A stretch of 13,259 nucleotides of DNA. Origin: an uncultured Phenylobacterium sp. GTDB lineage: Bacteria > Pseudomonadota > Alphaproteobacteria > Caulobacterales > Caulobacteraceae. Shown here piece by piece: positions 2,430 to 13,259 of the stretch. The position numbers and the translations under genes are program-made. Positions within the stretch are counted from its first letter, which is position 1. Each line of letters begins with the position of its first letter. Below the pieces are notes generated by a model. That model made no database searches. It was given only the letters and a program-made list of their open reading frames with translations, and was not told where the DNA came from. The stretch covers positions 1 to 13,259 of the forward strand of contig CAMFIW010000026.1 of assembly GCA_945952355.1 (NCBI GenBank). Direction: 5' to 3'.

Positions 2430-4757
2430 TCAGCCCACCGTCCGTTCGTAGGCGCCGCACGCCCCCGCGCCGTCCGTGCGGCGACTGGCGCCGGCGAGGT
2501 CGTAGGCCAGGACGGAACGCCCAGCCGGCACCCTGCCATAGGCCGCGCTCGTCCCGCCGGTCAGGCCATAGGCGCCGTTGCCCGTCCCGGCCGTGCCGGA
2601 CTTGTCGTTGGCGAAGGTCACCGCCCCGACCCCGACGCCGGGCGAACAGCCGGCCTGCCAGTACTCTCCGAGGAAGTTGGCCGCCCCGTCCGCCGCTGGC
2701 GTGGTGTTGCCGTTGGCGTCGCCCTGCAGGGCGACATTGCCCTCGTGGCCGACCGTATAGCGGTTGGCCCAGTTGCCGACCCGGCCGGTTCCCTGCGCTG
2801 GCTGGGCGAAGGTGTCGGTCTTGCAGTTGTACTGCGCCCACAGATTGAAGCGCATCGATGCGCCGGTCTTCAGCACTCCGGCCGCGCCGGACACGTCGGC
2901 ATAGATCGCATTCAATCGCCCACCGCCGTCGACGCCCGGGATCGTGACGTGTTGCAGCACCAGATTGTCGACCGTCACCGTGGCGCCATCGGCCGCGATC
3001 TGCAGGGCCGGTACGCTGGACGCCGCCACGGCGCGCTCGACCAGGTTCTGAACGAAGGCGATCCCGCGGCTGAACGCGGCCGACAGGCCGACGGCCTGGA
3101 CGATGCGCGAGTTCATGAAGCTGCAGTTGTAGATCACCATGCCGTCATGGCTGTCGCAGTTCGGCACCTGGCTGAAATCGTTCTCGTTGAGATAGGCGCG
3201 GTGAAACTGGCAGCCGATCAGGACGGTCGGCTTGGTTTTCAGATCCGCGGTGTTGTTGGTCGTCACGCAGCCGAGCCCGAGCGCCACTTGGGTCCGGTAG
3301 GTCGACGTTGGCGCGAACGGCCAGGAGGCCGTGTCGGTGAACCCGTCGAGCGTGACATTCCGTAGATAGGTGAGGCCGCAGCGCCAGTTCACCGGCGCGG
3401 CCGACGAGGTGCTCGACAGCCTCATCCCCTCATAGGCGGCCATGATGTAGCCGTTGCTCACACCGCCATCGAGGCCTTGGGCCGCCGTATGCGATAGGTC
3501 CGCCATCCAGCGCAGCTTGTCGACCGTGTCGCGCCAAGCGGTGAGCGACAGGCTCACGGAGCCCGTCGCGGCCGGATCGACCTTGATGTCCGTCCAACAC
3601 TGTCCCGATGCGCCGGCCAGATCGTTGTTGATACCGATGGTCGCGCCGCCGCCCGCGCTGTCCTCCATGAGATAGATCGTGCTGCCGGAATGATCGGCGT
3701 GGCCTTTGTTGCTTCCGTTCCAGGCGACCAGCGCAGCGATGGCCGCGGCGATCGTCGGAAACGGCGTGCTGCGCGCCGCGCTGATCGACGTCTGCACCGT
3801 GCCGCCCGAGGCGCTGTTCTTTACGCAGGCGACCGCGCCGCCATAGGCGCCGGTCTTGTCGTTCAGGAACCGGAGCTTGGTCTGCGGCTGGCTTGTCGGC
3901 CACGCGATGCCGCCTGTCGAAAGGTCCAGCACCGCCGAGCTATCGCCGATCCAGGGAAAGACTTTGGCGTTCACCTGGCAGATGTCGCCTTGGGACAGTG
4001 CGCTCACTGGGATCGTGGCCTTGTAGGCCTCCGCGATATTGCCCTTGGTCTGAATGGACGACAGCCCAGTCGAGCTCGCCGTCTGCGTCGGGGCGGCATG
4101 GGCGCTCGCATCGGTGGCGGCGAACTCGATACGCGCCACCTGACGACCGTTCATCGCGTGGCGGTGGAAGGCTACGGCCTCCACGGCGAAATCGCCGGTG
4201 GCCCGCTCGTGCTGGAGGTTCAGCCAGGCGAACAGCGGCTTGGAATAGCCCCTTCCCGACCCGTTGGTCCGGGTCGAAATTCCCCCCGAGGCGGACAGAC
4301 CGTAGAAGCCCGTCGCCGCGGTGGCCGATGCGATCGTGGAGCCCTGATAGATCCAGTCGGACAGGGCGAAATAGACGGTCAGCGTCACGCCATCGTTGGA
4401 TTGCTGGTTGCTGGCGTTGGCGCTGTACTGGCGCCGCAACACCCGCGTCCCGATGATCGTTCGGCTGACGGTCGTCGTCCCCTCCGCATCATAGCCAGGA
4501 TCGGTGACGTTCAGGCTGATCTTGCTGGGGTCGAAGGTCTGGCCGGCCAGGTACGGCACGGTGACCTTCGCCACCCAGCCGTCGCCATTGATCCCGATCC
4601 GGCTGGTCGCGTCGGCATAGTCGCCGGTGGCGTCCAGCAGCGGGCTCGCACCCATGATGCCGAGCGAGGTGATCGCCGAGCCGGGCGGGGCCGAACCGCC
4701 GCCGCCCGGCACGCGCGACGCATGCCCCTGGCCGCGGAATCCAAGATGCACCGTCAT
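2430..4757 (-). CDS. Large beta-helix virion protein, candidate tailspike or head fibre
   Basis: 775 aa, starting at ATG 4757-4755 two bases after the previous stop. A longer in-frame opening to 5216 is rejected because it would cross the 104-aa gene and the end of the coat gene. The N-terminus has a glycine-rich linker (RVPGGGGSAPPGSAITSLG), then about 250 residues of beta-rich domains, including a region ending YKATIPVSALSQGDICQVNA with KVFPWIGDSSAVLDLS near 265-280. From about residue 322 the pattern changes to that of right-handed parallel beta-helices: ARSTPFPTIAAAIAAL is the usual entry helix of pectate-lyase-like folds, followed by repeated short rungs such as NVTLDGF, VIYNCSFMNS, FVQNLVERA and LVLQHVTIPGV. 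The chain ends GACGAYERTVG, like the D-x-GAYE endings of other beta-helix proteins. It could be a polysaccharide-binding or cleaving spike, or a capsid fibre. No catalytic triad could be assigned by eye. Confidence 0.8.
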   Translation of the reverse strand: MTVHLGFRGQGHASRVPGGGGSAPPGSAITSLGIMGASPLLDATGDYADATSRIGINGDGWVAKVTVPYLAGQTFDPSKISLNVTDPGYDAEGTTTVSRTIIGTRVLRRQYSANASNQQSNDGVTLTVYFALSDWIYQGSTIASATAATGFYGLSASGGISTRTNGSGRGYSKPLFAWLNLQHERATGDFAVEAVAFHRHAMNGRQVARIEFAATDASAHAAPTQTASSTGLSSIQTKGNIAEAYKATIPVSALSQGDICQVNAKVFPWIGDSSAVLDLSTGGIAWPTSQPQTKLRFLNDKTGAYGGAVACVKNSASGGTVQTSISAARSTPFPTIAAAIAALVAWNGSNKGHADHSGSTIYLMEDSAGGGATIGINNDLAGASGQCWTDIKVDPAATGSVSLSLTAWRDTVDKLRWMADLSHTAAQGLDGGVSNGYIMAAYEGMRLSSTSSAAPVNWRCGLTYLRNVTLDGFTDTASWPFAPTSTYRTQVALGLGCVTTNNTADLKTKPTVLIGCQFHRAYLNENDFSQVPNCDSHDGMVIYNCSFMNSRIVQAVGLSAAFSRGIAFVQNLVERAVAASSVPALQIAADGATVTVDNLVLQHVTIPGVDGGGRLNAIYADVSGAAGVLKTGASMRFNLWAQYNCKTDTFAQPAQGTGRVGNWANRYTVGHEGNVALQGDANGNTTPAADGAANFLGEYWQAGCSPGVGVGAVTFANDKSGTAGTGNGAYGLTGGTSAAYGRVPAGRSVLAYDLAGASRRTDGAGACGAYERTVG

Positions 4758-4759
4758 GT

Positions 4760-5074
4760 TCAGGCGCCGTCCCCGCTGGTCAGGTACACTGTCGCCGTGC
4801 CGCTGGCGGTAATCGCCGCGGCATGGGTGACCGGGTTGTCGTCTCGGTTGGCCACGGTCAGCACCTCGTCGCAGGGCGCCGGAAACGGGATGTCGTTCGC
4901 TGTCGCGATCAGCCCCGACTGGCCGAACTTCAGGAAGAACGGAGTGGATCCGGTGCAGACGATGCGCACTTGGTATCGGCCGCCGCGCGGCGCCCCGGCC
5001 AGCCCGACGGCTGCGCTCGAGGTGGATGCGGACAGGCTGACGGTGCCGTTGGGCAACGGGCGGAACGGAACCAT
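4760..5074 (-). CDS. Small beta-sandwich protein downstream of coat, 104 aa
   Basis: The start is ATG 5074-5072, with a perfect AGGAGG (complement of 5081-5086) six bases upstream, the strongest ribosome binding site in the window. The protein starts MVPFRPLPNGTVSLSASTSS and is all predicted beta: RYQVRIVCTGSTPFFLKFG, then GLIATANDIPFPAPCDEVLTV and a last strand AAAITASGTATVYLTSGDGA. The pattern (fixed strand with vFxxFG, a P-x-P-x-x-x-x-E loop and a final ITASGTATVYxTxGEG-like strand) recurs in small proteins next to phage coat genes. Their place suggests a decoration or head-fibre-attachment role, but this is inference. The gene follows the coat gene after an 80-base gap with a hairpin and is two bases from the beta-helix gene, so these two are probably co-translated and may work together. 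Confidence 0.8.
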   Translation of the reverse strand: MVPFRPLPNGTVSLSASTSSAAVGLAGAPRGGRYQVRIVCTGSTPFFLKFGQSGLIATANDIPFPAPCDEVLTVANRDDNPVTHAAAITASGTATVYLTSGDGA

Positions 5075-5154: not shown

Positions 5155-6360
5155 CTAGTTGTTCGCCAGTCGGCAGGCGAGCTGCGGCCGCAAGGTTTTG
5201 AAACCGTAGAGCACATCGAGGCGGCACGGGAACTTGTCGTTGTTGATGTCGTACTGGCGCACGATCCGCATCGACACCCCGTCGAACACCTCGCGGGCGG
5301 CGAAGTCCACGCCTCGCGGCATCACCATGTCCGCTGTCGCGAAGGCGAAGGCGCTCTTGTGATAGGCAAGACTGATCCCGTGAGGCTGCGAGGCCGTGCC
5401 CGCGACGGTGATCGCTGCGTTGTCGGCGGGCAGTGCGCTCACGTTCTGGGTCGCCGGCGAACCCGCAGGCCCGACGATGGCCGGGAAGATGCCGATCGTC
5501 AGATTGCCGGAACCGTCCGCGGTTGCGTCGGCCGTCACCACGAACTGCTGCGCCACGCCCGTCGATTGCTTAGTCTCCGGGTGGACGCGGTGGACATTGG
5601 TGATGGTGAAGATGTCGCCCTTCTTCAGCGCCGCCGTACTGGCTGTCCAGCCGTCGGTCACGAGGCTGGCGCCGCTTTGCGAAGCGCCGTTGACCAGGGG
5701 CGTGCCCGCCTTGGCGCCAGGGGAGTGTGAAGGCCACAGGGTGTTCTCCATGAAGTCGAACCCGGCGGTCCGCCCCATGAAACCCTCGCGATACTGTCGC
5801 GAGAGGGTGTCGCGATCGTTGAACAGGCCCTTCAGCGCGTCCACCAGATCCATGTTGTCCTGGGTATTCAGGTTGCAGGTCCGACCGCTCAAGGGCGCGA
5901 GGTTATCCACCAGGATCTTGCGTCCATTCAGCACCTTGTTGAACGACGCGGCTGCGCCCTGGTTGTTCACCTGGTTGTTGACATCCTTGTACATCGACAT
6001 GGCGTCCGCCTCGATCGTGGCGGCCAGCACGCTCATCGCGGGCTCGAGGATTCGGTCGCTGAAATCGTCGAGGCTGAGGGTCAGATCGATCGAGGTGAAG
6101 TTGAGGTCGACGCCCTTCTGATTGGCGACTTTCAGGTCGACGCTGTTCTCGAGCGTATCCTGCGCGTTCAGGGTGGGGCCACTACGGACCACATACTGGT
6201 TCGGCAGGCGCACCTTCAGGGTGTCGCCGACCTTGGCGCCCTGGCGGGCGAAGGTGTCGTCGTACTCACGGGTGATGGAACCCACGAAATTCAGTTTCTG
6301 GTGCAGCACGCGCAAGGCTTCGCGCGTCACGGCGGTGGGAGAAAGAAGCGTATTGGCCAT
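5155..6360 (-). CDS. Major capsid (coat) protein, P22 coat family
   Basis: 401 aa from ATG 6360-6358 (MANTLLSPTAVTREALRVLH). An ATG eight codons further up (MPERSPDF) exists but has no ribosome binding site, and family members start with MAN-like residues. The family signature is strong: LHQKLNFVGSITREYDDTFA at 19-37, GAKVGDTLKVRLPNQYVV at 41-58, NAQDTLENSVDLKV at 65-78 and FTSIDLTLSLDDFSDRI at 88-104. Residues about 235-320 are Thr/Ala/Gly-rich beta strand (KKGDIFTITNVHRVHPETK and following) and correspond to the place of the inserted I-domain in P22 coat. The chain ends with a beta segment CRLDVLYGFKTLRPQLACRL. It would form the icosahedral shell on the scaffold encoded upstream. Length is close to the P22 coat (about 430). 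This is one of the most secure calls here. Confidence 0.95.
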   Translation of the reverse strand: MANTLLSPTAVTREALRVLHQKLNFVGSITREYDDTFARQGAKVGDTLKVRLPNQYVVRSGPTLNAQDTLENSVDLKVANQKGVDLNFTSIDLTLSLDDFSDRILEPAMSVLAATIEADAMSMYKDVNNQVNNQGAAASFNKVLNGRKILVDNLAPLSGRTCNLNTQDNMDLVDALKGLFNDRDTLSRQYREGFMGRTAGFDFMENTLWPSHSPGAKAGTPLVNGASQSGASLVTDGWTASTAALKKGDIFTITNVHRVHPETKQSTGVAQQFVVTADATADGSGNLTIGIFPAIVGPAGSPATQNVSALPADNAAITVAGTASQPHGISLAYHKSAFAFATADMVMPRGVDFAAREVFDGVSMRIVRQYDINNDKFPCRLDVLYGFKTLRPQLACRLANN

Positions 6361-6539: not shown

Positions 6540-7049
6540 TCAGCGCCGGCGCGGGTCGTACTCGACGTGGATGTGGTTCCGCGCGGGATTGTCCGGGAAT
6601 GTCTCGTAGAACACCTGATAGTCGTCGCCGATCCTGCGCGCGAGATCGTCCCGGATCCGCGTCGCGGTCGAAGGCGCGATATCATTGGCCCGCAGGTCGA
6701 ACGCCAGGTCGCGATAGTGCCGAGAGTCCGGTCGGTGCTTCCCGTCGCTGCCCGCGGTGATCACCGGCCGCGGTCCGCCGGCGGCCTGCCAACTATCGGA
6801 TACGTCGCTCTCTATCCGGGTCATCTCCGGACGCAGCCCGCCGATCCGGGCGCCGTCCTTCACCGCGAGCACGTAGTCGTCGAGCTTGGCCCGAAGGGGC
6901 GGCAGGAAATCCGCCTGGCCGATGATTGTCGGCTCGAGGCCTTGCTCGGCGGGTCCGCCGCCCGCGGCGCGCGCCGAAGCGACCCAGGTTCGGGTCAGAA
7001 GTCGGCGGGCGTCGGCTCGAGCCAAGGCGAGAAAAGAACGTTCGTCCAT
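6540..7049 (-). CDS. M15-like zinc peptidase (DD/LD-peptidase type), candidate cell-wall hydrolase
   Basis: 169 aa from ATG 7049-7047, with GGAG about ten bases upstream. No signal peptide or membrane segment is seen. The N-terminal 85 residues are helical (FLALARADARRLLTR) and not recognised. The C-terminal half has the layout of M15-type peptidoglycan peptidases: ITAGSDGKHRPDSRHYRDLAFDL, with S109-x-H111 and D118 in the SxHxxGxAxD pattern, then E149 and H159-I-H161 before VEYDP. H111, D118 and H161 would bind zinc and E149 would be the base. The usual glycine of the first motif is Asp114 here. Phage proteins with an HIHVEYDP ending of this type are common, often unnamed, and may be endolysins or virion hydrolases. 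It lies between a secreted protein gene and the coat gene, an odd place for a lysis gene. Family moderately sure, role unsure. Confidence 0.75.
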   Translation of the reverse strand: MDERSFLALARADARRLLTRTWVASARAAGGGPAEQGLEPTIIGQADFLPPLRAKLDDYVLAVKDGARIGGLRPEMTRIESDVSDSWQAAGGPRPVITAGSDGKHRPDSRHYRDLAFDLRANDIAPSTATRIRDDLARRIGDDYQVFYETFPDNPARNHIHVEYDPRRR

Positions 7050-7087
7050 CGGTCGGCTGCTCCGCGAGGTGGTCCGACCGGCAATCC

Positions 7088-7600
7088 TCAGTCGGTGAGG
7101 TAGACCGCCACGAAGCGCCTCCCGTTCCAGCGGAATGCGATGTCCGAGGTCTCATAATAGGTCAGGACAGGGAAAGGGTGGCGGCTCATCAGCCTGGGTT
7201 GGCATGGTGCTCGATCATCGCCCGCGCCACGGCCGCAGGCGGTCTGGTACACGCCCGCCGCCTGGACAGACAGGGTCAGGTCAATCAGCCTATCGAGCGG
7301 CTCCGACTGCAACAGGAGCGGCGGCCCGCCCCCGCCGCGCACGACGAAGACGCCAAGGCGTCGATGAGCCTTGTCGATCATCATACGTGCATGGTCGCGG
7401 CGGCCGTCACCGTCGAAATCGGCCGAGACGTCATACGCCGGGTTCGGCGGCCGATCCTCAGCCTTCGTGCCGAGTCGCGCCGCGATTGCATCGGCGTCGG
7501 CCATCGTCGCCGGGCGCCATCCCGGTGACGCGCCCTTCGCCTCCACCTCGCCGCCGCCCAAGGCCGCGGCGGCGACAAATCCCAGAACCAACGCCCTCAT
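7088..7600 (-). CDS. Secreted protein with DxDGDG calcium-type loop, unknown function
   Basis: 170 aa from ATG 7600-7598, preceded by GGGGGA a few bases upstream. An upstream in-frame ATG at 7627 would put nine extra residues before the signal peptide and is less likely. The N-terminus MRALVLGFVAAAALGGGEVEA is a clear Sec signal peptide, cleaved near residue 21-22. Residues 61-70 (DFDGDGRRDH) form a D-x-D-x-D-G loop as in FG-GAP/VCBS or EF-hand-like calcium sites, followed by ARMMIDKAHRRLGVFVVRGG and a C-terminal domain ending DIAFRWNGRRFVAVYLTD. Cys residues at about 130 and 141 could form a disulfide in the periplasm. It is 38 bases before the peptidase gene, so the two are probably co-transcribed. 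No known family is claimed; it could be a cell-surface modifier, an inhibitor of its neighbour, or a moron. Confidence 0.8.
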   Translation of the reverse strand: MRALVLGFVAAAALGGGEVEAKGASPGWRPATMADADAIAARLGTKAEDRPPNPAYDVSADFDGDGRRDHARMMIDKAHRRLGVFVVRGGGGPPLLLQSEPLDRLIDLTLSVQAAGVYQTACGRGAGDDRAPCQPRLMSRHPFPVLTYYETSDIAFRWNGRRFVAVYLTD

Positions 7601-7667
7601 GGATCCCCCACGCGCTAGACAACCCATGGTGTCATTGAACGAAACGGGAACTCAAGACCTTTCCACC

Positions 7668-8507
7668 CTACCTCGCTCGCCGGGCTGCGTCGTTCCGACG
7701 GCGCATCCACTCGGCCGTGGCCATCTCGTCGCGAACCGCAGCGCCGGGCGCCGCGGCGCCGCTGACGGAGACAGCCGGCCGGACGGCCTGGGTCTGGGCG
7801 AGGTTGCGCCCGGCCGCCTGCTGCTTCGCCGCCTCGTCGCCAAGATGCGCCCGGTGCAGGATCAGCCACAGCCGCGGATCGGCGATCTCGCGCAGTTCGT
7901 CGAGGGTCACTCCGAAGGCCCCGGCATACTCGACCAGTTTGGCCGCGATCTCCGGCGACCAGCCCTCGATTTTCTGGGCCAGGACCTTGCCTGTTTCCAC
8001 CAGTTGAGCCGCGGCGTCGCGCTCGGCCTGGAGCTGGGTCTGATGCTCGTGGTGCGCCAGGGCCCACGCGTACCGGTCTCGGACCTCCTGGGTCTGCTGG
8101 GCCTGCGCCCACAGCGTTTGCGCCTGGGCCGGATCGGCCTGGCCCAGCGCGTCCCAATCCACGGAGCCGTACATCTCGATCTGCTGGTCCAGGAGGTGCA
8201 GCTGGGCGCGATCCGAGATCTTGGCGTGCGCTGCGTGCGCCCGAGCCTCGAGGGCTCTGCGATCCTGTTCCAGCGCGCGGCGATGATCGGCGAGTTCCTG
8301 TGTTTTGCGGGTATAGTCCGCCTGCATCAGGAAGGCGCCCTTCAACGCCTTGGGGATCTGATAGAATTGGCCCTGGTGCTCGACTTCCTCGGTGTCGTCC
8401 AGAGGCGCCTCGGCCTCAGCCGCGTCGGTCATCCCGGCCTCGGCGACTTCCGGATCGTCGGCCAGGTTCAGGTCCGCGCCCGGATTGGTCGCTTGGTTGT
8501 TCGTCAT
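7668..8507 (-). CDS. Capsid scaffolding protein
   Basis: 279 aa from ATG 8507-8505 with AGAGGA (complement of 8512-8517) four bases upstream. The in-frame opening to 8633 lacks such a site. The layout is typical of phage scaffolds. An acidic, disordered N-terminus comes first (residues 11-43, rich in D/E), then QIPKALKGAFLMQADYTRKT (50-69), a motif common in scaffolds of P22-like heads. A long Gln/Ala/Glu-rich coiled coil follows (about 66-160, including LADHRRALEQDRRALEARAH), then a helical domain, and a basic C-terminal helix (WMRRRNDAARRAR) of the kind that binds coat. It would guide coat assembly and leave the head before or during packaging. It is the first gene after a terminator-promoter junction, so it can be transcribed apart from terminase and portal. 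Two genes separate it from coat, whereas they are usually adjacent. Confidence 0.88.
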   Translation of the reverse strand: MTNNQATNPGADLNLADDPEVAEAGMTDAAEAEAPLDDTEEVEHQGQFYQIPKALKGAFLMQADYTRKTQELADHRRALEQDRRALEARAHAAHAKISDRAQLHLLDQQIEMYGSVDWDALGQADPAQAQTLWAQAQQTQEVRDRYAWALAHHEHQTQLQAERDAAAQLVETGKVLAQKIEGWSPEIAAKLVEYAGAFGVTLDELREIADPRLWLILHRAHLGDEAAKQQAAGRNLAQTQAVRPAVSVSGAAAPGAAVRDEMATAEWMRRRNDAARRAR

Positions 8508-8650
8508 GCTGTCCTCTGGAGGTTGGAGCGCGGCCAGCCGGCCGCGGACGCACGCTAACGCTGCGGCGATCGATGGGTCGGTCAGGATTGGGAATTCGTG
8601 GTCGGCGTCAGCGCCGCCAGCCGGCGGACGCAACTTCCGACGTTGAGGAA

Positions 8651-8679
8651 ATCCTACCGAAATCCCGCGAGATAGTCAA
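8651..8679 (-). promoter_or_regulatory. Sigma70-like promoter for the scaffold-coat block
   Basis: On the minus strand TTGACT (complement of 8674-8679) and TAGGAT (complement of 8651-8656) are separated by exactly 17 bases. They match five of six and four of six bases of the sigma70 consensus, rare in this GC-rich sequence. The predicted start of transcription near 8644 leaves a leader of about 137 bases to the scaffold ATG at 8507. The site directly follows a terminator, which fits a new transcript start for scaffold, peptidase, coat and the genes beyond. No operator was recognised. Confidence 0.7.
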
Positions 8680-8683
8680 GAAC

Positions 8684-8715
8684 AAAAAGGGAACAATGCC
8701 GCCTATTCGGCGGCA
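8684..8715 (-). terminator. Intrinsic terminator overlapping the end of the membrane protein gene
   Basis: A perfect 7-bp stem (TGCCGCC at 8697-8703 and GGCGGCA at 8709-8715) with a five-base loop is followed on the minus strand by TTGTTCCC and then TTTTT (complement of 8684-8688). The TAG stop codon of the membrane protein gene (8705-8703) lies in the hairpin. The eight-base gap before the T run makes it imperfect, but with the promoter starting only four bases further on it forms a neat transcription-unit boundary. Confidence 0.65.
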
Positions 8716-9095
8716 CAGTAGCTGATCGGCGTTCCTCTGAACCGCTCGGCGATCTCGGAAGATTCAGCCTTGCCCTTGAATACGCGCAGCTCGGTCCCCG
8801 CCCATTCGAGGCGCGACGCCCGGCGTTTCAGAAGGGCGGCGCGATCTCGGTTGTCGTCGAAGGGCGCCTTCGCATCGGCGATCAGCAACCAGGTGGTCCC
8901 GGAGGTGGTTGCGCCGCAGTCCAGATAGACGAGCGCCGCCCGGCGCCGCCCATCAGGAGAAACCTTCTCATCGATGACCTCACGGGCGCAGACCGATGCC
9001 AGTTCATGAACGCCGACCGCCAAATAGGCCCCATAGGCGAGGGCCAAGGCGCACACCACACCCGCCGCGATCCATCCGAGTCTAGCGTTGGTCAT
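8703..9095 (-). CDS. Small membrane-anchored protein with exported domain, possible immunity partner
   Basis: 130 aa from ATG 9095-9093; the start lies inside the 3' end of the toxin-like gene (14-base overlap), with GAGGAAGGGG upstream. Residues about 7-29 (GWIAAGVVCALALAYGAYLA) form one membrane segment or uncleaved signal anchor. The rest should face the periplasm: CAREVIDEKVSPDGRRRAALV, then YLDCGATTSGTTWLLIADAK, a pattern like small membrane proteins with an SPDG...CGATT motif (DUF5412-like by memory, not checked). Cys residues in CARE, DCGATT and the SYCAAE end could form a disulfide. Its overlap with the type-44-like gene is the order and spacing expected of an immunity gene following an effector gene. 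It could equally be a superinfection-exclusion or conversion protein. Membrane topology is clear, role is not. Confidence 0.82.
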   Translation of the reverse strand: MTNARLGWIAAGVVCALALAYGAYLAVGVHELASVCAREVIDEKVSPDGRRRAALVYLDCGATTSGTTWLLIADAKAPFDDNRDRAALLKRRASRLEWAGTELRVFKGKAESSEIAERFRGTPISYCAAE

Positions 9096-9771
9096 GGTAT
9101 CGCGCCCCTTCCTCGATCCAGAACTGGTCCACTGGATCGTCCCCGTATGATCCGGCCCCCAGGAACGGAGCTAGATGCGGGCCAGGTTGGCCCCACTCCG
9201 ACTGCGTCGTCCGATCCCGCAACTGAGCCCGCCCCGCTTCCTGGTCCAGGATGGCGGTCGGAAAGCCGATCTCGCGACCGGTCGCGCCGTAGTTGAAGTT
9301 CCCGAACGCCTCCCACTTGGGATCGAGTCGCTTGTAGTCCCAAGGCGCCCCCTTGGGCACGATCTGTCGAAACCAGATCGGACCCTTTCCCGTCGCCATC
9401 GCGATGTTGGCGTCGACGCTGGCGTCCGGGGGGCCAGGCGGCGTCACCACTGGCCCCGTCCGCGCCGCCGTGCGCCCGGTCTCATAGCCCGGCCGCAGGC
9501 TCGCGATCGGCGCGCCACGGTCATCGATCCTGAGACTTGCACCCGGCAGCTCGACGATATCGCCGGCCTGCAGATGCGACAGGTCCGCCCTCTTCATCCT
9601 GGCCGGCTCGCCCTGGCGCAGATCATAGGTCAGCGGTCCCGGCGGATAGGCCGACATGGCCTGGCTGAATGGGTCGGTCGCAGAGACCGCCGGCAGGAAG
9701 GCGCGCAGGCCTTGCCAGATCATCGTCTTCGCCTCCCGCCGCGCGGCGTCGAGGTTCGTCTCAGCCGGCAT
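9082..9771 (-). CDS. Protein with polymorphic toxin type 44-like C-terminal domain
   Basis: 229 aa from ATG 9771-9769, which overlaps the end of the portal gene by 11 bases and has GAGGG about nine bases upstream. Another ATG at 9798 has no site. No signal peptide is seen. The N-terminus has a helix (ARREAKTMIWQGLRAFLPAV), then a small beta stretch with LQAGDIVELPGASLRIDD, then a Pro-rich linker near 105-120. Residues about 130-229 resemble the bacterial toxin 44 domain (Ntox44): WFRQIV, WDYK at 144-147, FGNFNYGATG at 156-165, GFPTAILDQEAGRAQ at 169-183, and GDDPVDQFWIEEGARY at the end, with the typical Asp-rich DDPxDQ. In other proteins this domain is the toxic tip of polymorphic toxins. The biochemical activity is not claimed here. 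The gene between portal and terminator is followed by a membrane protein that could be its immunity partner. An alternative is a phage cell-wall enzyme or ejected protein. Confidence 0.72.
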   Translation of the reverse strand: MPAETNLDAARREAKTMIWQGLRAFLPAVSATDPFSQAMSAYPPGPLTYDLRQGEPARMKRADLSHLQAGDIVELPGASLRIDDRGAPIASLRPGYETGRTAARTGPVVTPPGPPDASVDANIAMATGKGPIWFRQIVPKGAPWDYKRLDPKWEAFGNFNYGATGREIGFPTAILDQEAGRAQLRDRTTQSEWGQPGPHLAPFLGAGSYGDDPVDQFWIEEGARYHDQR

Positions 9772-11683
9772 GGCGGCGTCCCTCAGGTCCACGATCATCG
9801 GCGGCCGTCGCGCGCATCCGTTCGGTCTGCGCCTCGAACGCCGCGATCTCCAAACGGCGCGCCTCGTTGGCGCGATCCTGTTCAAGCCCGGCGATCTTGC
9901 CGGCTGCGGCCTGCAGGGCCTGGGCCAGCTTGGCGATCTGCGCCTTGGCCGCGTCGAGCTCGGGCGAGCCCGGCTTCAGCTCCGCCGGCAGCATGGCCGC
10001 CAGCCGCCCGGCGATCTCGTCGGCGCCCGGCCAGTCCAGGTTCTTCGCCAGCAGGTCGCCCATGATCGGCGCCGCTTGGGGATAAGCCCGGATCAGCTCG
10101 ATCATCTGGGTCGCCGCCTCTTCGCGCCGAGAGGTGAAGGACGGGCCCGACTTCACAGTCAGGTCGTACTTGCCGACGGTCAGGTCGTAGATCTTCTCGA
10201 TCTTGCGCGCTTGGCTCTCCTTGTCCGGGCCGGGCGCCTGGAGTTTCTGGTTCACGGGCGCCAGCTGCGCGTCGCCGCTCGGTCCCAGCACCCGCACGAC
10301 CCGCGGCGCAGAATAGACCTTGGGGATCAGGTCGATCAGGATCCGGCCGGCGTGGCGGATCGCCCGGCTGAGATTGTCGATATAGTGGAAGGTCGAGACG
10401 TCACCTTCGCGCTGCCGCGCCATGATCGCGCGTCCGGAGGTCTCGTTGGACCGCGCGCCAAGCGAGGCGTCGTACAGGCCCATGATCGACTTCATGTCGT
10501 CCGCGGCGTTCAGCGCCTCCTGGATCGCGCCCGCCGGCACGCCGCCGAAACCCTGGCGCTGGGGCGGCTCGGGTCCGTCATACTCGATATAGGCGTGGGT
10601 CTGGACATTGGCTGTCGCCCACTTCGTCGCGTCGGTTTCGAACGCCCCCTTGCGGCCGATGAACGGCGCCTTGGGCGCCAGCGCCACCAGCTCGGTCGAG
10701 GTCGTGCGCCAGTAGTTGAACATCCGCTGCGGGTCCTTGGCGTCGCGCACCAGGCTCCTCAGCCGACGTTTGCCGTCGACGTGCAGCTCCTCGCCATAGA
10801 CCGGCACGATCGGGATGTATTTGCCCGCCCAGTCCACGGTCTCCAGCACCTCCGCCCCGGTCAGGACGCGCTGAGTCACTTTGTGCGATGCGACCATCCG
10901 CGGCTGGCCGATGACGCTGACGCCCAGGGCGTCGAACATCGCCTTCTGCGCGCGATAGACCCCCTCTTCCACCACCTGGCCGTCCGACAGCGCCAGGATG
11001 GTCCGCGTGGCCGCTTCCCGTCGCCAGTATTCGGCCACCATCACCCGGTCGCCGTCCATCCAGGTCCCGGGAAGTCCGCCATAGGCCTCGGCCTGCCAGT
11101 CCACCGCCTGCGCCCCCTTCCAGCGGGCCTCGAAGGCGGCCCTGGGCAGGCTGTCGACCACGAAGGCGGTGTTCCAGTCGGAGCTGTCGGCCGCGGTCGA
11201 ATGAGGATCGCCATAGATCGAGAACGGGTCCGCCACCCGCTCGATCACCAGATCCTGGTCGAAGCCGTCGTCCCGGGCGTAGCGCGTATTGATCCGGAAG
11301 TAGCCGAACCCGCCGGTGACCGCGAAGTCGAGCGCGGTATCGTAGGCGACCTCCGCGTCCGAGGACTGCTCGATGTTGCGGATCAGTCCGTTCAGGATCT
11401 CCGCCGTCTCCGGATCGGCCGCGTCGTCCACCGGATGGCAGACGATCGAAGGCTTGTTCTGCCGCGCGTCGTTGACGACCTGGCGGATGAAGGCCGGCAG
11501 CCGGTTGATCGTCAGGCAGGGCCGGCCGTCCAGCTCGCGGTCGCGCCGAACCTTTTCTGGCCACTGCTCGCCCAGGCGGGCGAAGCGAATGTCGTCGACC
11601 GCGGCCAGCCGGTTCTCGGCCTCGCAGTCGCGCGCCAGGTCGAACGCCTCGCGGGCGTCCTTCAGGATGTCTTCGTTTTTCAT
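9761..11683 (-). CDS. Portal protein, P22 portal family
   Basis: 640 aa from ATG 11683-11681 (MKNEDILKDAREAFDLARDC), with AGAGG (complement of 11689-11693) five bases upstream. The in-frame ATG at 11839 lies inside the preceding gene and gives an Arg-rich leader typical of wrong-frame sequence. Family marks are the N-terminal LGEQWP, the block RPCLTINRLPAFIRQVVNDA at 54-73, the region with AVTGGFGYFRINTRY and DPFSIYGDPHS, and later NAADDMKSIMGLYDASLGAR followed by ETSGRAIMARQREGD. The C-terminus has a long Ala/Gln/Glu helix (about 575-625), like the barrel helices of P22 portal. The protein makes the dodecameric ring through which DNA is packaged and ejected. Length is a little under P22 gp1 (725). 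The call is secure. Its stop overlaps the start of the toxin-like gene, so the two are coupled. Confidence 0.94.
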   Translation of the reverse strand: MKNEDILKDAREAFDLARDCEAENRLAAVDDIRFARLGEQWPEKVRRDRELDGRPCLTINRLPAFIRQVVNDARQNKPSIVCHPVDDAADPETAEILNGLIRNIEQSSDAEVAYDTALDFAVTGGFGYFRINTRYARDDGFDQDLVIERVADPFSIYGDPHSTAADSSDWNTAFVVDSLPRAAFEARWKGAQAVDWQAEAYGGLPGTWMDGDRVMVAEYWRREAATRTILALSDGQVVEEGVYRAQKAMFDALGVSVIGQPRMVASHKVTQRVLTGAEVLETVDWAGKYIPIVPVYGEELHVDGKRRLRSLVRDAKDPQRMFNYWRTTSTELVALAPKAPFIGRKGAFETDATKWATANVQTHAYIEYDGPEPPQRQGFGGVPAGAIQEALNAADDMKSIMGLYDASLGARSNETSGRAIMARQREGDVSTFHYIDNLSRAIRHAGRILIDLIPKVYSAPRVVRVLGPSGDAQLAPVNQKLQAPGPDKESQARKIEKIYDLTVGKYDLTVKSGPSFTSRREEAATQMIELIRAYPQAAPIMGDLLAKNLDWPGADEIAGRLAAMLPAELKPGSPELDAAKAQIAKLAQALQAAAGKIAGLEQDRANEARRLEIAAFEAQTERMRATAADDRGPEGRRHAG

Positions 11684-11708
11684 GCAGGCCTCTCGGGGCG
11701 CTCGCCCT

Positions 11709-11753
11709 GCGACGCGCCAGTATCGGTCTCGCTCAGGCGTCGGCGCGCGTCGC
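11709..11753 (-). other. Inverted repeat in the leader of the portal gene
   Basis: A perfect 9-bp inverted repeat, GCGACGCGC (11709-11717) and GCGCGTCGC (11745-11753), flanks a 27-base loop in the 73-base gap between the secreted-protein stop and the portal start. No T run follows, so it is not an intrinsic terminator. It could be an mRNA structure that sets portal translation, or chance in a GC-rich gap. Confidence 0.3.
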
Positions 11754-11756
11754 GGG

Positions 11757-12398
11757 TCAATCCAGGCAGGATTTGTCGGCCGGCGGCGTCGTGACCCGCG
11801 CCTTCGGCGTGAAGGGACCCGCGAGCGGAACGTCGTCATAGAACATGCAGCGGCCTAGGGCGGAACCTCCGTTCGCCGGGGCATATGCCAGGTCGGCCAC
11901 CAGCCAGATGCGATCGGACGTCATGCGCCGCACCCTCGTCAGCGACCACATCACCTCATGGCGAGCCGGCGCCTGGCGACCGGCCTCCAGATTGATCCAG
12001 CCCTGCAAGGCTTGTGGCTTCTGCGCGGGATGCTTCAGGTCGTAGATCAGGATCTCGGCCCGGTTCGGGCCCGGCAGGTTCTGGACGACCAGGAAGCGTT
12101 CGTCGGAGCTCCAGTACAGATAGGCGTCCCGTGTCACCTTGAAGGCTAGGCGTGGCCTGGCGCTTCCACCCCCCATCACCTCCATCACCGCGTTCTCGTC
12201 GGGGTCGCCGGGCGCCGCGCGAAGACTGACGCGCCAATGGCAGCTCGGCGACCGGAATTGCCGCCGCTCGGAGGTATGCACGTGGACGCCCCCGGGCTCC
12301 GGCCCTGAGTTCGGCGGCCTGGGCGCGCCACAGGGTCCATGCGAGGCCAGGTTCGGCGCGGCGGCCAATGCGCCGGCGGCCAGGAGCGCTGCGATCAT
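11757..12398 (-). CDS. Secreted protein, unknown function, possible partner of the preceding gene
   Basis: 213 aa from ATG 12398-12396, which overlaps the stop of the preceding gene as ATGA. An upstream in-frame ATG (MDDTMIAAL) would place acidic residues before the signal segment and is less likely. The N-terminus MIAALLAAGALAAAPNLASH is a short hydrophobic signal peptide without the usual basic start, cleaved around residue 14-19. The mature part has VHVHTSERRQFRSPSCHWRV, then VTRDAYLYWSSDERFLVVQN and AEILIYDLKHPAQKPQ, which read like successive beta hairpins of a propeller-like (WSxDxRxLxxQ) domain. Four Cys at about 23, 53, 187 and 211 could pair in the periplasm. Order and coupling with the unknown gene before it are like effector and immunity genes. 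No family was recognised; it may equally be a conversion gene. Confidence 0.8.
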   Translation of the reverse strand: MIAALLAAGALAAAPNLASHGPCGAPRPPNSGPEPGGVHVHTSERRQFRSPSCHWRVSLRAAPGDPDENAVMEVMGGGSARPRLAFKVTRDAYLYWSSDERFLVVQNLPGPNRAEILIYDLKHPAQKPQALQGWINLEAGRQAPARHEVMWSLTRVRRMTSDRIWLVADLAYAPANGGSALGRCMFYDDVPLAGPFTPKARVTTPPADKSCLD

Positions 12399-12973
12399 CG
12401 TGTCGTCCATCCCGCCGGGCACGCCGCGCCGATGTCTGCGGGGAAGCTGATGGTTGTCGGAAATCGGACCCGGCCGAACCTGCGGGCGCTGCGGTTGTCG
12501 GGCCAGCGATAGATGTCGAAGGCGACGCCCGGCGTCCCGCGCACGTTCGCATCGCCGATGTCCGACACGGAATAAGGTCCGGAGGGGCCGCGGGTGTCGG
12601 CCACCCTCCCGCCGTCCTGCGGAGATATCGCGATCTGCCCGCCGTACTGGCGCAGCTTGGCCTTGTTCAGGCCGAGGAAGCCGGGCTGCACGGCGACCGT
12701 CCCTGGCGTCCCGCCTCGGATCGAATATCGCCCGTGTTCCGAATAGAGCGCACCCATCCCCTGCGCCTGCTTGTCGTCCACCGCCGTGTAGGTCGCCGGC
12801 CCTTCGCAATGGGTCATCCTGACGAGGGCCGGAGCTTGGGCCACGTCGGCTGCGGGCTCGCTCAGCGCTTGCCAAGCCCGCTGGTCCCTTTCCTGGCGCG
12901 CCTGCGCCAGGTCTTCGGTCCGGCGGCGGAACCATCGCGCCAAGGCGCCGTCCTCGTCGAACGTCACGGCCAT
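12395..12973 (-). CDS. Unknown protein between terminase and portal, 192 aa
   Basis: ATG 12973-12971 with GGGAGGA (complement of 12978-12984) close upstream. It has no signal peptide and no membrane segment. An N-terminal charged helix (WFRRRTEDLAQARQERDQRA) is followed by a likely globular domain: LVRMTHCEGPATYTAVDDKQ, then GTVAVQPGFLGLNKAKLRQYGG, IAISPQDGGRV, and near the end GPYSVSDIGDANVR with GVAFDIYRWPDNRSARRFG. The conserved-looking blocks (HC..PATY, SDIGD.N.R, FDIYR) suggest a compact, possibly enzymatic domain, but I cannot name it. It is not a known terminase or portal component. Its stop overlaps the start of a secreted protein, the same plan as the type-44-like gene and its membrane partner. 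On that ground it is a candidate effector, an inference from layout only. Confidence 0.8.
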   Translation of the reverse strand: MAVTFDEDGALARWFRRRTEDLAQARQERDQRAWQALSEPAADVAQAPALVRMTHCEGPATYTAVDDKQAQGMGALYSEHGRYSIRGGTPGTVAVQPGFLGLNKAKLRQYGGQIAISPQDGGRVADTRGPSGPYSVSDIGDANVRGTPGVAFDIYRWPDNRSARRFGRVRFPTTISFPADIGAACPAGWTTR

Positions 12974-13077: not shown

Positions 13078-13259
13078 CTAGCCCATCCAGCTCAGCCGCT
13101 CGCCCTCGCGTCGCGCCGCCGTCCTAGGCGCGGACGCGCCGCGCCGGTTCGCGGCGAACTCGCCGAAGGCGTCGGCGCCGTGGCTCGCAGCGTCGTGCAG
13201 CGGCCCCACAAAGCTGCGAGTGGCCGAGCTCCAGCGCTTGCGATAGGCCCTCAGCCGGT
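13078..13259 (-). CDS. Terminase large subunit, C-terminal end only (gene runs off right edge)
   Basis: An open frame from the right edge ends TAG at 13080-13078 and gives 59 full residues, starting RLRAYRKRWSSATRSF and continuing VGPLHDAASHGADAFGEFAA with a basic tail ending RREGERLSWMG. The block P-x-HD-x-x-SH-x-x-DAF is the standard ending of the phage terminase large subunit nuclease domain; the second Asp (in GADAF) is one of the metal-binding residues of that RNase H-like nuclease. The enzyme cuts and pumps DNA into the procapsid. Position upstream of portal fits. The ATPase and most of the nuclease domain lie outside the window. Confidence 0.88.
   Translation of the reverse strand, partial: RLRAYRKRWSSATRSFVGPLHDAASHGADAFGEFAANRRGASAPRTAARREGERLSWMG

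Follow-up and report, generated by a model that had tools for sequence, protein, structure and literature searches.

The C terminus of the scaffold protein of phage P22 contacts the coat protein. P22 cannot assemble its capsid without a helix-turn-helix (HTH) in this region (residues 268 to 303), and when a truncated scaffold retains this HTH, proteins fused ahead of it become encapsulated (PMC9962691). Toxin domains located in the head/packaging module of temperate phages are known from MuF toxins (PMC5576092) and from a MuF phage-capsid-like system (PMC3482391), for which packaging in the head has been predicted and small downstream genes have been proposed to provide immunity. Effector domains, including cell-wall hydrolases, have also been proposed to be virion-borne in the multidomain polyvalent proteins (PMC5512222). 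The window analyzed here is the entire 13,259-nt contig CAMFIW010000026.1 of a draft genome (completeness 74%) of an uncultured Phenylobacterium sp., in which a P22-type head operon is interrupted by three gene pairs. With a probability of about 0.6, these pairs are polymorphic toxin-immunity cassettes that occupy three cargo sites of the operon and whose toxins are docked by short tags and borne by the particle, which is possibly domesticated. All the genes in question are on the minus strand, in the following 5'-to-3' order:

13078 to 13257, minus strand: C-terminal piece (∼59 codons) of the large terminase; ends in ..RLSWMG and by eye resembles the C terminus of the intact terminase of locus L102
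12395 to 12973, minus strand: putative 192-aa effector of pair 1, with a helical N-terminal tag (residues ∼5 to 49) and a beta-rich domain (residues ∼52 to 190)
11757 to 12398, minus strand: exported partner of pair 1, 213 aa, with the hydrophobic N terminus MIAALLAAGALAAAPN
9761 to 11683, minus strand: P22-type portal (Pfam P22_portal, 4.6e-200; PHROG 156)
9082 to 9798, minus strand: putative Ntox44 effector of pair 2, 238 aa (Pfam Ntox44, 9.2e-9, 36.1 bits)
8703 to 9095, minus strand: N-terminally anchored partner of pair 2, 130 aa (family F8)
7668 to 8507, minus strand: scaffold (PHROG 3927, 5.2e-37); ends in RDEMATAEWMRRRNDAARRAR
7088 to 7600, minus strand: exported partner of pair 3, 170 aa, with a hydrophobic N terminus
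6540 to 7049, minus strand: putative M15/hedgehog-like effector of pair 3, 169 aa, with an N-terminal tag (metal-site positions and homologues)
5155 to 6360, minus strand: P22-type coat (Pfam P22_CoatProtein, 9.4e-43; PHROG 283)

P22-like portal, scaffold, and coat genes are present in order, which identifies a P22-type head module, and the closest relatives of the portal in a scan of named genomes come mainly from Phenylobacterium (Caulobacteraceae). The C terminus of the scaffold is conserved among its relatives. The initial annotation, made from this DNA alone, had placed one non-exported and one exported or membrane protein at each junction of core head genes. This arrangement was confirmed, each junction of this contig holding a single pair, with export called from a hydrophobicity rule and by eye; the terminase, taken there as the first core gene, is a C-terminal piece only. 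The stop of the 192-aa gene overlaps the gene of its partner by 4 nt (ATGA), the end of the portal gene overlaps the Ntox44 gene by 38 nt, and the latter overlaps the gene of its anchored partner by 14 nt, so that pair 1 is tied together internally, as are portal and Ntox44 and Ntox44 and its partner. In pair 3, the order is reversed, with the partner preceding the effector.

All three non-exported proteins of the window look like effectors. The metal-site motif of M15/LAS peptidases consists of SxH..AxD and HxH, and these positions are invariant in an 11-member alignment of the pair 3 protein with 10 homologues. Profile matches in this family were weak (two members with HH_signal at 0.0053 and one with M15_3 at 0.026), and the M15-like protein retrieved only hedgehog chains from among PDB sequences (E values of 0.33 to 0.38). 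The basis of the M15-like label, also given in the initial annotation, is the metal-site positions together with the homologues; the window protein itself has no match to HH_signal, M15_3, or Pfam. In the 238-aa protein, the Ntox44 domain covers residues 161 to 237, scores 36.1 bits against a Pfam cut-off of 24, and contains DYK, GNFNYG, and DDPVD, in agreement with the motifs DxK, GNxxxG, and DxxxD given for this family (PMC3482391). Searches of PDB sequences returned nothing useful for this protein, the scaffold, or, in a profile search, the 192-aa protein, and neither the latter nor the two exported partners received a name from Pfam, PHROG, NCBIfam, or PADLOC. The AF2 model of the 192-aa protein (mean pLDDT of 77.8) weakly suggests that its beta-rich domain is a double-psi-barrel of the MltA-like type, its structural neighbors in Foldseek including MltA, YuiC, expansins, and a diffocin subunit. 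The best Foldseek row is a diffocin baseplate subunit (E value of 2.0e-4), a match interpreted as a common barrel and not as a sign of a tail function. The earlier count of two toxin- or peptidase-like proteins out of three therefore holds for the Ntox44 and M15-like proteins and would extend to the third if the weak MltA-like match holds. Among 299 genomes of the order, the 192-aa protein was matched in 2, the second of which, G093, was reached through the tag alone; P0003 was matched in 3 of 385 genomes of the class, in two of them weakly. The exported partner of pair 3 has relatives in five loci (L045, L106, L026, L027, and L023).

The same junctions were compared in the best 80 of 585 viral-contig loci and in 19 loci drawn from family genomes. 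Gene calls were supplemented by sense-strand tiling, families F36 and F47 to F50, taken for mirror open reading frames (ORFs), were excluded, and the gap counts include the window and retain near-duplicate and near-identical loci. Head-gene junctions are bimodal cassette sites, either empty or filled. The terminase-portal gap is at most 300 nt long in 20 of 59 cases and at least 700 nt long in 37, 20 of which exceed 2,000 nt; the respective numbers are 40, 49, and 5 for the 91 portal-scaffold gaps and 39, 41, and 2 for the 87 scaffold-coat gaps. All three sites are occupied in 12 of the 50 loci that could be measured at every site. Among the 83 portal-scaffold and scaffold-coat gaps of 700 to 2,000 nt, a strict codon filter finds a non-exported gene together with an exported or membrane gene in 35, a number that is probably low since the filter misses partners seen by looser calls (e.g., in the portal-scaffold gaps of L054 and L108); for comparison, 37 of 238 adjacent gene pairs downstream of the coat gene show the same mixture. 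Cargo families change places from locus to locus and from site to site, with relatives of the Ntox44 protein occupying the scaffold-coat site in L033 and L039. The gain, loss, and swapping of pairs that the initial annotation had suggested looking for do occur. Displaced toxin/immunity remnants are found in other polymorphic toxin loci. A displaced cassette can be recognized by eye in L024, where a scaffold-end repeat lies behind the scaffold-coat pair, along with fragments of a toxin C terminus and of an orphan partner (toxin/partner remnant at 7918 to 8225); this is a single case with a near-duplicate in L088. In the more distant loci L084, L087, and L092, the portal-scaffold site is filled by a single 327-aa protein that has no partner, and in L078, L079, L080, and L082, also more distant, the same site holds a recurrent cysteine-containing protein of at most 179 aa on the opposite strand.

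Approximately 11 cargo types could be named by profile, motif, model, or eye, with unnamed types besides. They comprise Ntox44, M15-like, MltA-like, M23 (PF01551, 7.6e-32), and lysozyme-like proteins, two GHSYGG hydrolases, an NlpC/P60-like fold, and DUF6973-like (below cut-off), glycine-zipper, and nuclease-like proteins; the NSNS model had no Foldseek match at an E value of ≤0.001. Partner genes follow this repertoire. In 69 gaps, after ten near-duplicate loci had been dropped, the main effector family of a partner family was present in 41 of 47 partner gaps, compared with a mean of 23.4 and a maximum of 31 in 2,000 permutations within sites, an association that is descriptive because the family sets were picked after the co-occurrence list. 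The partner family F8 shares its gap with the Ntox44 family F2 in 3 of 4 loci (the window, L033, and L039) and occurs without an F2 protein in L103. A polytopic protein encoded on the opposite strand at L034:3694-4467 has an N-terminal ARAPRR that resembles one of the effector tags described below (the AP-tag), yet it clusters with a partner family.

The breadth of the cargo bears on one alternative, namely, that these are virion or lysis enzymes, cell-wall hydrolases that aid DNA entry or lysis and are only delayed or restrained by their exported partners. All three enzymes of the window may target the cell wall, and packaged cell-wall enzymes have been proposed as entry aids for polyvalent phage proteins (PMC5512222). 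However, this explanation, raised in the initial annotation as a dispersed lysis/entry module, fits less well, as lysozyme-, M23-, and NlpC-like cargo is joined in relatives by lipase-, nuclease-, and pore-former-like cargo with matched partners, and the element in G093 already encodes an M15_3 endolysin of its own; in addition, cargo is absent from a site in many loci. It is therefore considered improbable.

Short terminal tags recur on unrelated effectors. An N-terminal pattern of the scaffold-coat site, the AP-tag, was seen in 14 of 263 called cargo proteins and in none of 915 other genes, numbers that lean upward because the pattern was written after the cargo had been viewed. The matches span four unrelated families, two near-duplicate pairs included, and 70 genome loci, some from the same genomes, yielded 5 matches, 4 of them at the scaffold-coat site. 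A second N-terminal tag, N-tag 2 (LRxAAxRxxxxN), was turned into a profile built from 11 non-M15 proteins. In a ranking by this profile, the N termini of the M15-like family (the window protein plus 7 homologues) precede the first protein that is clearly not cargo, with E values of 0.15 to 0.41 for the window protein and 0.0015 for the best homologues, and hhalign aligns the two with a Prob of 81 (P = 1.2e-5).

Another class, the W-tag, resembles the end of the scaffold. A matrix made from 59 scaffold C termini and run over the other six-frame ORFs gave 15 hits at scores of ≥10, 23 at ≥8, and 41 at ≥4, versus 0, 1, and 6 in shuffled sequences. Twelve of the 15 best hits lie upstream of the portal or between portal and scaffold, two are scaffold-end repeats at the scaffold-coat site, and one is elsewhere; in L034, L035, and L036, a protein scores twice. 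In hhalign comparisons with the scaffold C termini, the C-tags of the portal-scaffold hydrolases reached a Prob of 95.5 (P = 1.6e-8) and those of the glycine-zipper proteins a Prob of 81 (P = 1.2e-5). GGxGxD segments resembling the calcium-binding repeats of RTX proteins follow the tags in several effectors (L034:458-1144, L035:3063-4190, and L122:1495-2064), the last with a below-cut-off match to PF00353 (E value of 0.087).

The tag of the 192-aa protein is a member of a small family of recurring N-terminal tags, and the relationship of this family to the scaffold is putative. Its profile matches 27 of 101 genomes of the genus at an E value of ≤0.01, and strongly only G093 (twice), G437, where the match adjoins head genes, and the window's own genome. 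The W motif was found at the expected position in 3 of 30 loci examined, a check that may have missed others. In G093, the tag alone matches two further ORFs with different C termini (L122:1495-2064 and L154:15528-16292, the latter being the same place as L123:1456-2220), so that three different C termini (window, L122, and L123) stand behind the same tag. One of these two ORFs is the first gene after the coat gene; the other lies ∼10.5 kb upstream of the portal, its C terminus is lysozyme-like (by eye), and it is accompanied by an exported protein encoded on the opposite strand. Conversely, the C-terminal domain of the 192-aa protein is also found on the RHS-like P0005, for which one member of five matches RHS_repeat (0.0049).

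An equally improbable alternative is that the pairs are lysogenic-conversion or superinfection-exclusion genes that merely happen to lie in the head operon and whose products are not head-borne. Some partner-like genes are on the opposite strand, and the terminase-portal region also harbors host-like genes (BlaI-like and OsmC-like, by eye) and a histidine kinase. However, this leaves unexplained the recurrent tags on unrelated effectors, one class of which is similar to the scaffold C terminus. A BlaI-like regulator (by eye) is present in or beside the region upstream of the portal in L105, L109, L036, and L034, and in L105 this region also carries OsmC-like and membrane genes (by eye). That the pairs are effectors of another secretion system, such as the type VI secretion system, with the prophage as a safe site, is very unlikely, given the absence of the AP-tag pattern from the 915 other genes of the loci and the presence of cassettes at head junctions in many loci.

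The toxin-immunity reading, which the initial annotation had offered as an effector/immunity-like cargo system, is favored by site occupancy and swapping, partner association, shared toxin domains, recurrent tags, and the displaced remnant, all of which can be read from the sequences. Three features of polymorphic toxins were found here: a constant, putatively trafficking segment with variable C-terminal toxin domains; domains in common with other polymorphic toxins, namely, Ntox44 and the domain shared by the 192-aa protein and P0005; and, in the one case of L024 read by eye, orphan remnants. From these observations we infer toxicity, neutralization through binding, packaging, and delivery, as follows. 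Each non-exported protein would be a toxin that couples its catalytic domain to a short tag at one terminus, and each partner would be an immunity protein whose location matches the site of action of its toxin, with exported partners for cell-wall enzymes, polytopic ones for toxins of the lipase- or pore-former-like types, and soluble ones for nuclease-like toxins. The short end-tags, some of them like the scaffold C terminus, suggest that the shell may carry toxins. The tags could attach the toxin to the coat, the scaffold, or the portal while the procapsid is being assembled, and the docked toxin would then travel with the particle and might reach target cells on infection or lysis.

Several observations weigh against this reading. 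The excess of matrix hits is small in the 70 genome loci, partly from the same genomes (6 versus 0, 7 versus 2, and 14 versus 11 at ≥10, ≥8, and ≥4), and, beyond the upward lean of the AP-tag counts, the tag and partner statistics lean upward because C-tags were picked by a W..R pattern and family sets after the co-occurrence list. The N-tag family of the 192-aa protein is only weakly similar to the scaffold C termini in hhalign (Prob of 16, P = 0.0016), its tag has a matrix score of 3.0, inside the shuffled range, and seven of eight other genome places with matches to this tag have no head gene nearby. The Ntox44 protein of the window has no recognized tag. Under the strict filter, 33 of the 83 gaps mentioned above hold non-exported genes only, 6 membrane genes only, and 9 neither. 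Finally, the opposite-strand partner families are too diverged for proof of coding, with pN below pS in 16 of 20 pairs for F9 and in 8 of 14 for F11.

The contig of the window is too short for chromosomal placement; residence was considered in relatives, where the flanking genes hisD-like, murA, maf, and exbD were named by eye. The portal is matched in 48 of 101 Phenylobacterium genomes. By-hand comparison placed the portal, or a fragment of it, on the same contig and strand as the hisD-like gene in 29 genomes, within 25 kb in 25 of them and at 32, 66, 83, and 282 kb in the others. A flank with hisD, maf, and exbD is common to eight of nine same-genus genomes examined, five of which also have a murA match, and none of the eight has a tyrosine integrase (PF00589) near the element, other recombinases having been outside this search; in G074, a tyrosine integrase lies ∼15 kb from the element. 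In G093, a set of 36 chosen proteins matched PHROG and Pfam families of repressors, terminases, head and tail proteins, and endolysins, with no integrase among the PHROG families listed (25 of 34). Among seven portal-less genomes, two retain tail, terminase, or endolysin remnants at this place, one retains only a repressor relative, and four have no remnant within the stretch read; two further genomes have portal stubs joined to remnants. In the window itself, the coat gene is followed by a long tail-spike-like frame (by eye) and a short gene (2430 to 5074).

Distances of the element genes correlate with those of hisD in Mantel tests for the portal (r = 0.41, 27 genomes), scaffold (0.70), terminase (0.50), and tail genes (0.64 to 0.66), with no clear correlation for the coat (r = 0.26, P = 0.085); post hoc exclusion of G128 and G084 (G103 was likewise excluded, separately) gives 0.60 for the portal and 0.22 for the coat. 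Median dN/dS ratios are 0.26 to 0.28 for portal, coat, and terminase, 0.52 for the scaffold, 0.32 and 0.54 for two tail genes, and 0.15 for hisD, and the median dS of the portal (0.52) is below that of hisD (0.89), the pair sets differing. Strictly vertical descent is not supported, given the coat correlation and the lower dS of the portal; the distance and dS data fit long residence with exchange among relatives. It is conceivable, though rather doubtful, that Phenylobacterium maintains a P22-type particle that has long resided at one fixed chromosomal locus and become domesticated, with a head that has become a toxin-delivery vehicle, swappable toxins loaded through scaffold-like tags, and immunity genes that protect kin.

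P22-type cassettes of this kind were not found described in the titles and abstract openings of the literature within reach, which leaves out subscription papers and most preprints. They may represent a new kind of weapon in Caulobacteraceae and provide toxin and immunity families that are as yet unstudied. In its phage-like head, tail, and lysis genes, its apparently conserved chromosomal place, and the lack of a nearby tyrosine integrase in the eight genomes, the element resembles gene transfer agents, those of Caulobacter being the subject of PMC13236601; unlike them, it has a P22-type portal and coat and cargo cassettes, as judged from its genes. With the polyvalent proteins it shares effector domains that could be virion-borne, carried here by small proteins, each with a partner gene, instead of multidomain ones. 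As in engineered P22 nanocages, where a scaffold segment retaining the C terminus directs cargo into the procapsid (PMC9962691), a motif like the scaffold end may be involved; in contrast to them, the motif is natural, sits at either end of the effector, and is sometimes in tandem. The short tags may be natural loading signals for P22-type shells and candidate loading peptides for capsid engineering. Head-borne polymorphic toxins have already been proposed for MuF systems, which also combine toxin domains in the head module with putative immunity genes. None of the nine window proteins matches a MuF family in Pfam at an E value of ≤1, and short tags replace the head-protein domain; the present case differs further in its P22-type head, its exported or membrane partners, and the prominence of cell-wall and membrane targets, and appears to be a modular one, with three sites, ∼11 nameable toxin types, and matched partners.

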